NCBI GenBank assembly: GCA_025455465.1
Contig: JALOMI010000010.1
Span: 1 to 32,406 of the forward strand
Source: Cyclobacteriaceae bacterium
GTDB taxonomy: Bacteria; Bacteroidota; Bacteroidia; Cytophagales; Cyclobacteriaceae
Direction: 5' to 3'
Length of the DNA stretch: 32,406 nt
Part shown: positions 3,345-9,009 of the stretch, one piece after another
How positions within the stretch are numbered: position 1 is the first letter of the stretch
Layout of the letters: every line of letters begins with the position of its first letter
Notes under the pieces: generated by a model
The model's input: the letters and a program-made list of their open reading frames with translations, nothing else
Told to the model about the DNA's origin: nothing
The model's database searches: none
Translations under genes and position numbers: made by a program

Positions 3345-5277
3345 TCAGGATACAAACTCAACGCTTCGCCTGATGAAGTTGGTGAGGTCGGCACCGGTGA
3401 GCATGTTCTGCGACAAGAGGGCAAGGTCGAAGGCTTGCTTGGCCAGTTTCACTTTTGCATCTTCACTGTCGGCTTTCAGAATTTTCTGTACGATGTTGTG
3501 GTTTCCGTTGATCGCTACCTGGTAGCTGTCGGGCATACTGCCCATGAACGCATAGCCGCCACCCCCCATCTTCGCCATGTCTTTCATCCTGCGCATGAAT
3601 TCGCTCATCGTGATGACTACCGGGAAGTCATCCGCTGCCATCGGTTCTACACTAACGGTCATGTGGGTGTTGTTGATGGCCTTTGTGAAGATATCTTTCA
3701 CCTGCTCCTGCTCATCGCTGGTGAGTACGGTTTCCAGTTTTTCATCTTTATCGATGAGCTTATCAGCTGTATCACTGTCAACACGCTTGATATGGGTTTT
3801 CTCCAGCTTCTGTTCGAGGGTGTTGATATAATGGTTGTCGAGAACGCCATCCATCAGCAATACATCATAGGCTTTGTTTTTCGCAGCCTCGATGTAGCTG
3901 TGCTGTTTGCCGGCATCGGAAGCATAGAGGTAGATGGTTTGCTTTTCTTTATCCGTCTGGTTGGCTTTTACTTTCTCCTTGTATTCTTCGAAGGTAAAGT
4001 ATTGGCCATCCACATTTTTAAACAGGGAGAAATCCTTGGCACGGTCGTAGAACTTCTCATCACTGATGATACCGTACTTCACGAAGATGTTGATATCATC
4101 CCACTTTTTCTCAAAGTCAGTGCGATCCTTCTTGTAAAGTTCCTGGAGTTTGTCGGCTACTTTCTTGGTGATATGCTGGCTGATTTTCTTCACGTTGGCA
4201 TCGCTCTGCAGGTAACTGCGCGATACATTCAGCGGGATATCGGGTGAATCCAGTACGCCATGCAGGAGCATCAGGAAGTCGGGCACAACATCTTTGACCT
4301 CATCGGTGATGAACACCTGGCGGGAATAGAGCTGGATTTTATTTTTCTGCATCTCGAAATCATTCTTCACTTTCGGGAAGTACAGAATACCGGTCAGGTT
4401 GAACGGGTAATCCACATTCAGGTGTATCCAGAACAACGGTTCTTCACTGAACGGATAGAGTTCCTTATAAAACTTCAGGTAGTCTTCGTCCTTCAGGTCG
4501 TTGGGGGATTTCGTCCACAGCGGCTGCGTGTTGTTGATGATGCGGTCTACGGTAACGGTTTTGTATTTCTTCTTGCCCTCTGCGTCCTCACCATCTTCTA
4601 CGCTTTCTTCTTTCGTGCCGAACTTGATTTCTACCGGCAGGAATTTGCAGTACTTTTCGAGAATACCTTTCAAACGCCATTCATCCAGGAATTCTTCTGA
4701 ATCGGCATTGATATGAAGGATAACATCGGTTCCGCGGGTTTCTTTTTTGGAGGAAGTGATTTCAAACTCGGTGGAACCGTCACAAATCCATTTAGCCGGA
4801 TCGGCATTGTCCTGGTAGGAACGGGAGATTACTTCTACTTTATCGGCCACCATGAATGCGGAGTAGAAACCTAATCCGAACTTGCCGATGATGTCTTTGG
4901 CATCGGTTTTATCCTTGAACTTCTCCACGAACTCGGTGGCTCCGGAGAAGGCAATCTGGTTGATGTATTTTTTAATCTCCTCAGCCGTCATGCCAATACC
5001 CTTATCGCTCACCGTGATGGTTTTCTTCTTCTTATCGAAACTCACCTCGATTTTCAGGTCGCCCAGCTCACCGTTGAACTCGCCCAGGGAGGCCAGTTTT
5101 TTCAGTTTCTGGGTGGCATCAACCGCGTTGCTGACCAGTTCGCGGAGGAAGATTTCATGATCGGAATAGAGGAATTTTTTAATGATCTTCATGATCGGAA
5201 TAGAGGAATTTTTTAATGATCGGAAAGATGTTCTCGGTATGGATGGAAATACTGCCTTTTTCCTTTACGGCTGCCAT
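3345..5277 (-). pseudogene. htpG: Molecular chaperone HtpG (Hsp90), 5' end disrupted by a 34-bp tandem duplication
   Basis: Body ORF 3345..5192 (615 aa) is clearly HtpG (FLRELVSNAVDA, DKGIGMTAEEI, FGLGFYSAFMVADKV, DVILHI, PLNVSRSYLQSD). The usual N-terminus MAAVKEKGSISIHTENIFPIIKKFLYSDHE starts at ATG 5277 but stops at 5179 because the 34 bp is duplicated. Removing one copy restores one ORF of about 632 aa. Confidence 0.93.
5154..5221. repeat. Perfect 2 x 34-bp direct tandem duplication inside htpG
   Basis: TTCATGATCGGAATAGAGGAATTTTTTAATGATC at 5154-5187 and again at 5188-5221, with no mismatches. Confidence 0.98.
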
Positions 5278-5327
5278 AGTGTTCGATTTTTAAATGAGAC
5301 AAAACTTCTGCCGGGGAGTAAAACAAA

Positions 5328-5351
5328 AAATCCCCGCGCACGCGGGGATTT
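5328..5351 (-). terminator. Probable rho-independent terminator after the DUF4293-like gene
   Basis: AAATCCCCGC-GCAC-GCGGGGATTT, a 10-bp stem with 4-nt loop; the minus strand continues TTTGTTTT. Confidence 0.8.
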
Positions 5352-5391
5352 CAAATGTTGTTCCAGCAAGTTAAAAATGACAGGATGGCAG

Positions 5392-5844
5392 TCAGCGCAG
5401 GCGGTTGGAGTCCTGCACAATGCGTTCATCCCTGCGAATGAACCGGATTGCCAGCCAGTTGCTGATCACCGCCACAAAGGTGAGGTAAAGGCCTGGTCCA
5501 TACTGAAAACCAGCCGGGTAATCTTTGGATAGCTCAGAAGCAAACCATACGGCAGAGATCATGTAGCAGGCAAGAATCAACGTATTCAGTGCGCCTAATT
5601 TTATCTGCATCTGGCGGTTGTCGTAACGCCTGATTTCGATAATGGCCAGCGTGATGGCCGCTACCGCGAGTACTGCGGTAATGGTGTACGGCAAATACGT
5701 GTAGACAGAACCTTTCAATAAATAAAAGGGCGTTAGTACGATGGTGGTTTCACCTTCCTGAATTTGCCAGATCGGCTGCACCAGCGCCACCAGTAAGGCG
5801 ATGATGGTCATAACCAGAAATACCGTTTGAATTCTTTGCCACAT
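5392..5844 (-). CDS. DUF4293-like integral membrane protein
   Basis: 150 aa, four hydrophobic helices, starts MWQRIQTVFLVMTIIALLVALVQPIW and ends RRDERIVQDSNRLR. Resembles the Bacteroidota DUF4293 family. Confidence 0.75.
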   Translation of the reverse strand: MWQRIQTVFLVMTIIALLVALVQPIWQIQEGETTIVLTPFYLLKGSVYTYLPYTITAVLAVAAITLAIIEIRRYDNRQMQIKLGALNTLILACYMISAVWFASELSKDYPAGFQYGPGLYLTFVAVISNWLAIRFIRRDERIVQDSNRLR

Positions 5845-5886
5845 ATAGGGGTTGCGTTAACTTGGACGGCAAAAGTAAGAAGAATA

Positions 5887-6451
5887 TTGAGGAGGAGACA
5901 GGAGAATTGAAGTGACGAGTTTAGGAGCTGGATGGCAAGTAGATCAGAATACAAATAATTGGTTCGGGTTGCTGTGACTTAAGCCGAAAATAAAGTTTTA
6001 AAGTATGGAGAAAACCAAGTCTTTTGAAGAACTGATTGTTTGGCAGAAGGCTCATCAATTTGTTCTGGATGTCTATGCCCTGACCCAATCCCTTCCTCGG
6101 GAAGAACAATTTGGTCTCACCAGTCAGTTTCGCAGGGCCTCAATTTCAATTGCGGCTAATATTGCCGAAGGCTACAAAAAGAAAGGTCATCGTGATAAAT
6201 TGAAATTTTTCAATACCTCACAAGGCTCAATTTCCGAATGCCGTACTATTTGCGCCTGGCCCATGATCTCAGGTATGCGGAGACAGCAGAACTCTGTAAT
6301 AAACTGGAAGAAGTGAGCAAGTTATTAAGCACTTACATGCGTGGAATAATCAGAAACAATAATCCATGAACTTGCAAAACAATTAGAAATCCCCACTCAC
6401 TCCCAACTCCTGATTCCTAGTCTCCTGACTCCCAACTCCTCATCTCCTCAA
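5887..6451. repeat. Short inverted repeat bounding the four-helix-bundle gene, with GA/CT-rich degenerate repeats inside it
   Basis: TTGAGGAG (5887-5894) and CTCCTCAA (6444-6451) are an exact 8-bp inverted repeat. The left side continues GAGGAGGAGACAGGAGA; the right side has a 13-bp direct repeat ACTCCCAACTCCT at 6399-6411 and 6428-6440. Confidence 0.55.
6005..6369 (+). pseudogene. Four-helix-bundle protein (S23 / 23S rRNA intervening-sequence protein family), frameshifted near 6242
   Basis: MEKTKSFEELIVWQKAHQFVLDVYALTQSLPREEQFGLTSQFRRASISIAANIAEGYKKKGHRDKLKFFNTSQGSISECR, then out of frame. The alternative frame continues YYLRLAHDLRYAETAELCNKLEEVSKLLSTYMRGIIRNNNP* to 6369, the expected family C-terminus. 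Confidence 0.88.
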
Positions 6452-6452
6452 A

Positions 6453-7202
6453 ATGCCCCGCTACTTCTTTGAAATTGCTTATCACGGTGCCGGCTACGCT
6501 GGCTGGCAAACACAAGCCAATGCCACCGGTGTGCAGGAGGTAGTGGAAGATGCCCTCAGCAAACTCTTGCGAACATCAATTAAAATAGTGGGCAGCGGGC
6601 GGACCGACACCGGAGTACATTGCCGGCAGCAATTTTTTCATGCCGATATTGAAAAGTTCTTTGAAACTGAAAGCCTGATTCACCGGCTGAACAGTTTTTT
6701 ACCTCGTGATATTGCCATCCGCTCGATCCGAAAAGTTAAATCCGATGCCAGTGCACGTTATTCGGCCATGGAGCGAGAATACGAATACCGTATAACCCGC
6801 GTAAAGGATCCGTTGCTTACCGGCCTGGCCCTCCATTATTTTAAGTCGTTGGATATTCAAAACATGAATAAGGCGGCTGCGTTACTGCTGGGTACCCACG
6901 ACTTTACCTGTTTCAGCAAGGTAAAGACCGATGTAAACCACTTTATTTGCACCGTGAAAAGGGCAGAATGGAAGGCAAAAGGAGATCAACTGGTTTTTTC
7001 CATTGCTGCCAACCGGTTTTTACGGGGGATGGTGCGGGCTATCGTTGGAACGCTGCTGGATGTAGGTATCGGTAAACTAAGCGTGAACGATGTTCAAATG
7101 ATTATCGAAGGTAAAGACCGGAAAAAAGCAGGTGCCAATGCAGAGCCTTATGGGCTCTACCTGGTGCGTGTGAAGTATCCGCAGAAAATATTTATTAAGT
7201 AA
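6453..7202 (+). CDS. truA: tRNA pseudouridine synthase A
   Basis: 249 aa; YFFEIAYHGAGYAGWQTQ, VGSGRTDTGVHCRQQFFHAD, REYEYRI, FLRGMVRAIVGTLLDVG. Confidence 0.95.
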   Translation: MPRYFFEIAYHGAGYAGWQTQANATGVQEVVEDALSKLLRTSIKIVGSGRTDTGVHCRQQFFHADIEKFFETESLIHRLNSFLPRDIAIRSIRKVKSDASARYSAMEREYEYRITRVKDPLLTGLALHYFKSLDIQNMNKAAALLLGTHDFTCFSKVKTDVNHFICTVKRAEWKAKGDQLVFSIAANRFLRGMVRAIVGTLLDVGIGKLSVNDVQMIIEGKDRKKAGANAEPYGLYLVRVKYPQKIFIK

Positions 7203-7227
7203 TCAATAATCCGCTGCTGAAAGAGCG

Positions 7228-9009
7228 GTGAATGATGTGGAAAAAGAACAAGTAAGCAGCGGTAATATTATCGACTTCAAGGTGCTCAGGCGCATCATGA
7301 AGTTCGTACAACCGTACAAGGGAAGATTTTATTTTCTGATCTTCCTCACGCTGGCCATCGGCATCCTGACCCCTATACGACCGGTGTTGATTCAATGGAC
7401 GCTGGACAACCCTGTGGCTGACGGGGATTACAACACCATGCTCACCATGATGCTTGTGCTGTTCGGCTTACTGCTGGTACAGTCGGTGGCACAGTATGTT
7501 CATACCTACCTGTCGGGATGGATGGGGCAGCAGGTGATACGAGATATCCGAACACAGCTTTATCAGCACTTAGTAAACCTTCGACTGCGCTTCTTCGACA
7601 AGACACCTATTGGCCGTTTAGTTACCCGTACGATCAGCGATGTGGAAACCCTGGCCGATGTATTCAGCGAAGGACTGGCCGCTATGGTGAGTGATCTCTT
7701 ACAACTTATCTTCATTCTCTCGTTTATGTTCTATGAAGACTGGCGCCTGGCCTTGTTGAGCCTCGCTACAGTGCCCCTGCTGATGATTTCCACCTACGTC
7801 TTCAAGGAAAAAATCAAAGTCGCTTTTAATGATGTTCGCAATGCGGTTGCCAACCTGAATACATTTGTGCAGGAGCATCTTACCGGCATGAACGTAGTGC
7901 AGATTTTTGCCAGTGAACAACGCGAGTTCGAAAAATTCAAAACCATTAATGAAGAGCATCGCCAGGCCAACCTGCGATCGGTGTTGTATTATTCGATCTA
8001 CTTTCCGGTAGCGGAAATCATCGCTGCAGCAGGCATTGGGTTAATGGTATGGTACGGGGCCAAAGGAGCCATCAATGTCGAAGAAACCGGCATCACCATC
8101 GGTAAACTCATTGCGTTCATCATGTATATCCAGATGTTCTTCCGGCCTATTCGTATGATAGCCGACCGCTACAATACCTTGCAGATGGGCATTGTGAGTT
8201 CGTCACGGATTATCAATCTGCTGGATAACGATGAACATGTGCAGGATACCGGCACGCACAAACCCGAACACATTCAGGGTGAGGTGAAATTTGATCACGT
8301 ATGGTTTGCGTATAACGGAGAAGAGTATGTATTAAAGGATGTGAACTTCGAAGTGAAGCCCGGAGAAATGATTGCCCTGGTGGGCGCAACAGGTGCTGGG
8401 AAATCGTCCATTATCAACCTGCTAAACCGTTTCTACGAAATTAATAAAGGCAGCATCACCATTGATGGTGAAGATATTCGTGCTTATGATCTCGGTCATT
8501 TGCGAAAAAACATTGGTGTGGTACTACAGGATGTATTCCTGTTCTCCGACACCATCATGAACAACATTACGTTGGGTAGTCCGGAAGTAACGGAAGAGAT
8601 GGTATGGCACGCAGCTGACCTGGTTGGCGCGAGGAAGTTCATTAAAAAATTACCCGGCCAGCTTTCCTATAATGTGATGGAACGCGGTGCCACGCTTTCT
8701 GTCGGGCAGCGTCAGTTGATCTCTTTCATTCGCGCGATGGTCTATGATCCGAAGATTTTGGTGTTGGATGAAGCAACATCATCGGTTGACAGCGAGACCG
8801 AGCGGATGATCCAGCGAGCCATTGAAAAGATGATGAAAGGAAGAACATCCATCGTTATCGCCCACCGCTTATCCACCATCCAGAAAGCCGATAAAATTCT
8901 TGTTCTCGACATGGGTGAAATCCGCGAAAGCGGTAAGCATGAAGAACTGTTGGCTCAGGAAGGTTATTACGCGCAACTGCATAAAATGCAGTATAAGGAG
9001 TTTGCCTAA
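7228..9009 (+). CDS. ABC transporter, fused permease/ATPase (MsbA/MdlB-like, canonical Walker B)
   Basis: 593 aa, GTG start. ABC_membrane domain, Walker A GATGAGKSS, signature LSVGQRQ, Walker B ILVLDEATSSVD, H-loop IAHRLST. Confidence 0.93.
   Translation: MNDVEKEQVSSGNIIDFKVLRRIMKFVQPYKGRFYFLIFLTLAIGILTPIRPVLIQWTLDNPVADGDYNTMLTMMLVLFGLLLVQSVAQYVHTYLSGWMGQQVIRDIRTQLYQHLVNLRLRFFDKTPIGRLVTRTISDVETLADVFSEGLAAMVSDLLQLIFILSFMFYEDWRLALLSLATVPLLMISTYVFKEKIKVAFNDVRNAVANLNTFVQEHLTGMNVVQIFASEQREFEKFKTINEEHRQANLRSVLYYSIYFPVAEIIAAAGIGLMVWYGAKGAINVEETGITIGKLIAFIMYIQMFFRPIRMIADRYNTLQMGIVSSSRIINLLDNDEHVQDTGTHKPEHIQGEVKFDHVWFAYNGEEYVLKDVNFEVKPGEMIALVGATGAGKSSIINLLNRFYEINKGSITIDGEDIRAYDLGHLRKNIGVVLQDVFLFSDTIMNNITLGSPEVTEEMVWHAADLVGARKFIKKLPGQLSYNVMERGATLSVGQRQLISFIRAMVYDPKILVLDEATSSVDSETERMIQRAIEKMMKGRTSIVIAHRLSTIQKADKILVLDMGEIRESGKHEELLAQEGYYAQLHKMQYKEFA

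Follow-up and report, generated by a model that had tools for sequence, protein, structure and literature searches.

Why should a gene of the S23 type, a family carried in 23S rRNA intervening sequences (IVS), stand free between a DUF4293-type gene and truA with repeats on either side? The locus lies in the window, the whole 32,406-nucleotide stretch of Cyclobacteriaceae DNA that was analysed, and an earlier note on this DNA had read it as a candidate gene-plus-repeat module that moves. The block represents a worn copy of an S23 module of ~0.5 kb that is widespread and mobile-looking, and it and its neighbours comprise the following features.

5392 to 5844, - strand: left neighbour, DUF4293-type membrane protein (family name from the earlier note), with an orthologue in relatives by tblastn
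5887 to 5931, + strand: left heptamer array, decayed and purine-rich (GGAGACA GGAGAAT ...), pairing with the right array (inverted pairs I1 and I17)
6005 to 6369, + strand: S23 / 23S_rRNA_IVP four-helix-bundle gene (PF05635, TIGR02436), with one frameshift near 6242
6395 to 6451, + strand: right heptamer array (ACTCCCA ACTCCTG ATTCCTA. TCTCCTG ACTCCCA ACTCCTC. TCTCCTC), direct repeat D3, lag-7 identity 0.50
6453 to 7202, + strand: right neighbour, truA, present in 58 of 59 relatives

The ends of the block were found as first described, with a GA-rich left and a CT-rich right flank, TTGAGGAG starting at 5887 and CTCCTCAA ending at 6451, ACTCCCAACTCCT occurring twice (6399-6411 and 6428-6440) and the right array ending one base before the truA ATG at 6453. 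Of the 8-bp terminal inverted repeat proposed in the earlier note, the flank sequences and their inverted pairing stand while the repeat itself does not, the borders being degenerate heptamer arrays in which the longer inverted pair, I1 (5894-5921 / 6405-6432), spans 28 nt at 75%. Taken by themselves the window arms are only weakly beyond chance, their alignment score of 14 being a value that 1.9% of dinucleotide-model shuffles and 3.6% of arm swaps also attain (p ~0.02-0.04), and their meaning derives from the other S23 loci described below. The block sits between DUF4293 and truA, not within an rRNA gene, and an Rfam scan of 4800-7800 found no known RNA family above threshold and no rRNA family. 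Between htpG and DUF4293, a sub-threshold match to Chlorobi-1 RNA (5326-5382; 23.1 bits against a gathering cut-off of 50) is probably a terminator hairpin.

The gene proved to be the S23/IVS-type four-helix bundle anticipated from the letters alone, standing alone at truA and matching PF05635 (E 4.9e-29) and TIGR02436 (E 9.4e-27). A 1-nt frameshift near 6242 interrupts it: set beside the intact G011 orthologue, the frame-1 ORF (6005-6316, 103 aa) breaks after ...SECR and the C-terminus is carried on in frame 3 as YYLRLAHDLRYAETAELCNKLEEVSKLLSTYMRGIIRNNNP, with its stop, up to 6369; intact orthologues occupy the same truA site in both G011 and G014. The frameshift is either real or an artefact of the draft assembly. 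Some 1 kb away htpG (- strand, start ~5277) carries an exact 34-bp tandem duplication near its 5' end (5153-5220) that shifts its frame (MAAVKEKGSISIHTENIFPIIKKFLYSDHEDH, then stop), and an out-of-frame duplication at this distance makes sequence error plausible, the two together suggesting sequence error or decay in this contig.

The predicted fold of the S23 protein (pLDDT 95.9) has as its best structural match Xanthomonas XCC0516 (2gsc), for which GGGANTN arrays are predicted in both flanks, followed by BT_0352 (2rld) and then the Avd protein of diversity-generating retroelements (DGRs; 4dwl, 8ubb; TM ~0.79). Both S23 crystal structures (2gsc, 2rld) contain five chains each, consistent with a pentamer like Avd. 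This likeness, together with weak matches to the Avd families DivGenRetAVD (1e-5, 25.8 vs a cut-off of 80) and bAvd (1.7e-4, 22.5 vs a cut-off of 40), would fit a gene that serves as Avd in a DGR with its reverse transcriptase nearby or in trans. Such a reading is scarcely credible, being contradicted by the lack of RVT_1 in the window's own assembly (87% complete) and in 9 of 11 relatives rich in S23, some of them closed genomes carrying 7-10 S23 genes; as reverse transcriptase is absent from most S23-rich genomes, the module is not a DGR. A reverse transcriptase acting in trans is likewise unsupported by this distribution.

The draft genome to which the window belongs holds six PF05635 genes, most of them flanked by short degenerate 7-nt arrays with the left array inverted relative to the right and a text unique to each locus (GTCCATAGTCGATTGTCCATTG by metH, TTGACAGTTGACAA in fadB-fadA, ACTCCCAACTCCTGA by truA and CCAGCAACCAGCAA at L004). 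Several copies with the same borders would have counted as support in the earlier note; instead each S23 gene has its own border text and only the inverted, period-7 architecture is shared. The arrays are weak around L006, the copy between two tRNAs. At L004 (C57) the S23 gene has around it, besides its own arms, a pair of similar hairpins that lack a gene and lie in direct orientation, giving a composite arrangement.

Extending the comparison to other genomes gives a general rule, in that free-standing S23 (PF05635) genes are bracketed by inverted arrays of degenerate 7-bp repeats. S23 genes occur in 49 of 59 relatives with up to 15 per genome. At each locus the left flank was aligned to the reverse complement of its own right flank with swapped flanks as control, and a score of at least 14 was taken as matched arms. 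Matched inverted arms were found in 70% of 170 S23 loci from many phyla; among 95 loci of the window's clade the figure was 65%, against 3.6% for same-genome swaps and 1.5% of 536 control ORFs. Arms over the threshold are missing from the remaining ~30% of S23 loci, which are old, decayed or built in another way. Within one locus the arms match, the text varying from locus to locus, with mean scores of 17.1 for matched against 10.7 for swapped arms at 36 loci, medians of 16 against 9 at the 95 loci (10 in direct orientation) and medians of 18 against 10, with the same 7/14/21 periodicity, at 77 named loci that are mostly from Bacteroidota. In the set of 95 loci both flanks are periodic at exactly 7, 14 and 21 nt, identity at these lags being 0.37/0.35/0.34 on the left and 0.36/0.33/0.31 on the right over a background of ~0.27, and the periodicity was found neither in the S23 gene itself nor farther upstream. 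Usually one or two of the seven columns vary within an array, the spacing of the variable columns showing a mild excess of adjacent ones and no clear rule.

Arrays were also visible at loci labelled, as the metagenome-assembled genomes were filed, Ignavibacteriae, Clostridia, Syntrophus, Planctomycetaceae, Peregrinibacteria, Opitutae and Fibrobacter. Likewise all 11 plasmid loci (10 cyanobacterial, 1 Gemmatimonadota) are array-bracketed, with a median score of 28 against a swapped mean of 12; AGGGAAC/GTTCCCT and GGGAGTA/TACTCCC are examples of their inverted units. In two cyanobacterial genera a plasmid-borne S23 module lies between cas6 and cas4 (L251, L256). It had been allowed that low-complexity GA/CT-rich flanks around an ordinary gene might mimic an inverted repeat by chance, as the weak score of the window arms alone would permit. 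For the S23 class this is refuted by the gap between S23 loci and control genes, and for the window copy it is opposed by the truA-site copies in G011 and G014, which also have GA-rich left and CT-rich right arms, leaving it a negligible probability. Array text that differs at each locus also rules out a fixed terminal repeat.

Mobility of the S23 module is well supported, both by the linkage of array text to protein and by variation in site occupancy. The score between arrays of different loci climbs with S23 protein identity, from 8.7 at 30-40% to 15.6 at 70% or more (Mantel rho 0.197 vs a permutation maximum of 0.087), and pairs of S23 proteins at least 70% identical yet lodged at different sites keep a mean cross-array score of 15.4 (n=13). 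For example, AGATNTGAG arrays are found around the genes of close S23 relatives that occupy different sites in Mucilaginibacter, Pedobacter and Daejeonella. At a cysD/cysN-like junction a clean empty site of 3 nt in G002 stands against a ~517-nt module in G012, while the same junction holds an array remnant in G009, other S23 types with other heptamers in G014 and G015, a gene-less inverted pair in G008 and an unrelated gene in G004; a second junction shows similar mixed occupancy. At the site B junction the locus L236 (G004) has an 8-nt-period variant, CAGCGCCTTGGCGGTAAA...ACCGCAGAGACGCAAAGACGCAG, where sister species have 7-nt arrays.

The DUF4293-truA junction is similarly polymorphic, with S23 in the window's own genome, G011 and G014, a gene-less hairpin in G001 and G007, a bare solo array ACTCCTGAACTCCTGAACTCCTCAA in G010 and a plain short gap in G004, G008, G015, G016 and G031. 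The moving gene-plus-repeat module of the earlier note is supported, though in a form other than the one it pictured, by this occupancy, the clean empty site of a sister module, text shared between different sites and the solo arrays described below. The target-site duplication that it proposed to look for was not visible at the clean empty site, so that duplication of the IS or MITE type is rejected, and no transposition event was seen; the empty-site comparison draws on one genome per species, some of them drafts.

Arrays also occur without a gene. A generic scan for inverted pairs was too noisy for counting solo arrays and runs at lag 7 were therefore used, giving 33 arrays in 1.2 Mb from three S23-rich genomes of one genus against 3 in 1.19 Mb from several S23-less genomes (p 2e-7), two of the latter three being low-complexity; at other lags S23-rich and S23-less genomes did not differ. 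The texts of the solo arrays resemble S23 modules of the same genus and in several cases of the same genome, and the arrays, often single-sided, outnumber S23 genes. Their near-confinement to S23-bearing genomes suggests movement in trans, and their dependence on S23 is a strong lead that is phylogenetically not independent, as the S23-rich genomes belong to one genus. The excess of solo arrays over S23 genes could also mean that the host makes heptamer arrays, by slippage or from G-quadruplex-prone repeats, and that S23 genes merely travel between them by recombination with no role in the arrays, heptameric repeats being known without a linked protein (PMC4692102, PMC4679880). This passive role for S23 is improbable, for the arrays nearly vanish in S23-less relatives, their text co-varies with the S23 protein even across different sites, and arms within a locus match far better than arms from other loci of the same genome.

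The placement of the modules among genes is just as regular. Outer blocks have a median length of 482 nt, with 28 nt from array to start codon and 11 nt from stop codon to array, and left arms carry more G than C in 100 of 112 cases. Modules occupy tight gene junctions at which the neighbours agree in direction in 94% of cases, compared with ~70% of neighbouring pairs overall (633/908). S23 lies in sense between co-directional neighbours at 139 of 156 loci, and where both neighbours run the same way it does so in 139 of 146 (95%) vs 81% for middle genes generally (433/535); the window copy, with its divergent left neighbour, is one of the exceptions. As a three-frame stop sequence the left arrays rose barely above shuffle (2.07 vs 1.82 frames). 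The metH junction hosts S23 modules in several genera (L001, L036, L054, L060, L061, L066, L070, L072, L082), mostly with arrays of the GTCCATAG/GTCGATAG type, and is an old resident site. The fadB-fadA junction is repeatedly occupied by modules of differing repeat text (L002, L098, L110, L136), in three of which the array starts at the fadB stop codon. Vertical persistence also accounts for part of the pattern, given this recurrence at metH and fadB-fadA across genera.

The sense bias would also be expected of an intervening sequence acting at the level of RNA, whose arms would pair in mRNA and let RNase III excise the module from operon transcripts as it does for rRNA IVS, the module spreading or persisting because its RNA is silenced and S23 only packaging or stabilising RNA. 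RNase III cleaves the Coxiella IVS, which is built of the same parts, in vitro (PMC4990558), and Avd, a structural relative, acts within an RNA-protein complex (8ubb). Set against these, mismatches in the arms show no excess of pairs rescued by G-U wobble in sense RNA (165 vs 205), the neighbours at these loci are separate genes that need no excision, and solo arrays are often single-sided, so that this remains a rather unlikely account. This wobble count likewise lends no support to a sense-RNA stem kept by G-U pairs.

The best explanation as a whole, to which we assign a probability of roughly 60%, is that the window block is a decayed member of a selfish class of ~0.45-0.6 kb in which an S23 gene lies inside inverted period-7 arrays and S23 drives their copying. 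Under this explanation the S23 protein, with its Avd-like predicted fold, would recognise the heptamer text of its own module, as DNA or as RNA, and would drive or guide copying of that module and, in trans, of solo arrays, with cutting and synthesis supplied by host enzymes. Since the arrays abut stop and start codons, insertion between operon genes would be tolerated. More tentatively, these may be a class of mobile element whose ends are self-matching, freely diverging 7-mer arrays, their units read or written one by one by a pentameric S23 ring, and which would bring along neither a transposase nor a recombinase nor a reverse transcriptase, a possibility that we hold to be doubtful in this full form. 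We know of no catalytic function for S23.

Among known systems, REPIN-RAYT pairs a HUH tyrosine transposase, RAYT, with REPs, palindromes of 20-40 nt. The likeness lies in one gene flanked by short inverted repeats and many gene-less copies dependent on a gene-bearing genome, the gene-less copies here, with S23 in place of RAYT, being analogous on the strength of one S23-rich genus vs several S23-less genomes. The difference is that the gene here is a four-helix bundle without known catalysis rather than a HUH (Y1) transposase, and that the repeats are period-7 arrays.

The 23S rRNA IVS of Coxiella burnetii is closer in its parts, having a terminal stem of 28 bp and an S23 ORF with tandem GACAGAT heptamers beside its start, and this ORF was long ago suggested to be a mobility component (PMC4990558). 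Elements of this kind, of ~430-480 nt and patchy in distribution, have in common with the window block terminal inverted repeats around an S23 ORF in an element of ~0.4-0.6 kb, differing in that the present modules lie outside rRNA at gene junctions, vary in text at each locus, and occur as several unrelated modules per genome together with solo arrays. As such the Coxiella IVS looks like the same module inside rRNA, and other S23-bearing 23S rRNA intervening sequences would be so too.

Degenerate tandem heptamers, intergenic, near genes and often in inverted pairs, have been named STRR and otherwise in Nostoc, Calothrix and Anabaena, GGGANTN in Xanthomonas and TAACTGA in Beggiatoaceae (PMC4692102, PMC4679880). 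In Xcc they number 186 sites with 70 inverted pairs, and neither for Xanthomonas nor for Nostoc was a protein partner or a link to mobile elements described (PMC4692102). Cyanobacterial S23 loci carry such arrays, and the window copy has the tandem 7-nt repeat in decayed form; to the heptamers as published, the present loci add an S23 gene lying between the arms. In the open-access literature no paper was found that connects heptamers with S23 genes standing free.

These results tie the S23 protein family to the unexplained 7-base repeats of cyanobacteria, Xanthomonas and the Coxiella rRNA insert. S23 genes are very common yet without an assigned function, and heptamers between genes, familiar for decades, have lacked a protein partner; joining them gives each a testable partner and makes the rRNA IVS a single instance of a more general module. 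The loci also offer a natural experiment in which a short repeat diverges in text while staying matched to a protein. If true, a class of array-ended S23 elements would explain S23 genes together with rRNA intervening sequences and many of the orphan STRR-type heptamer repeats across bacteria.
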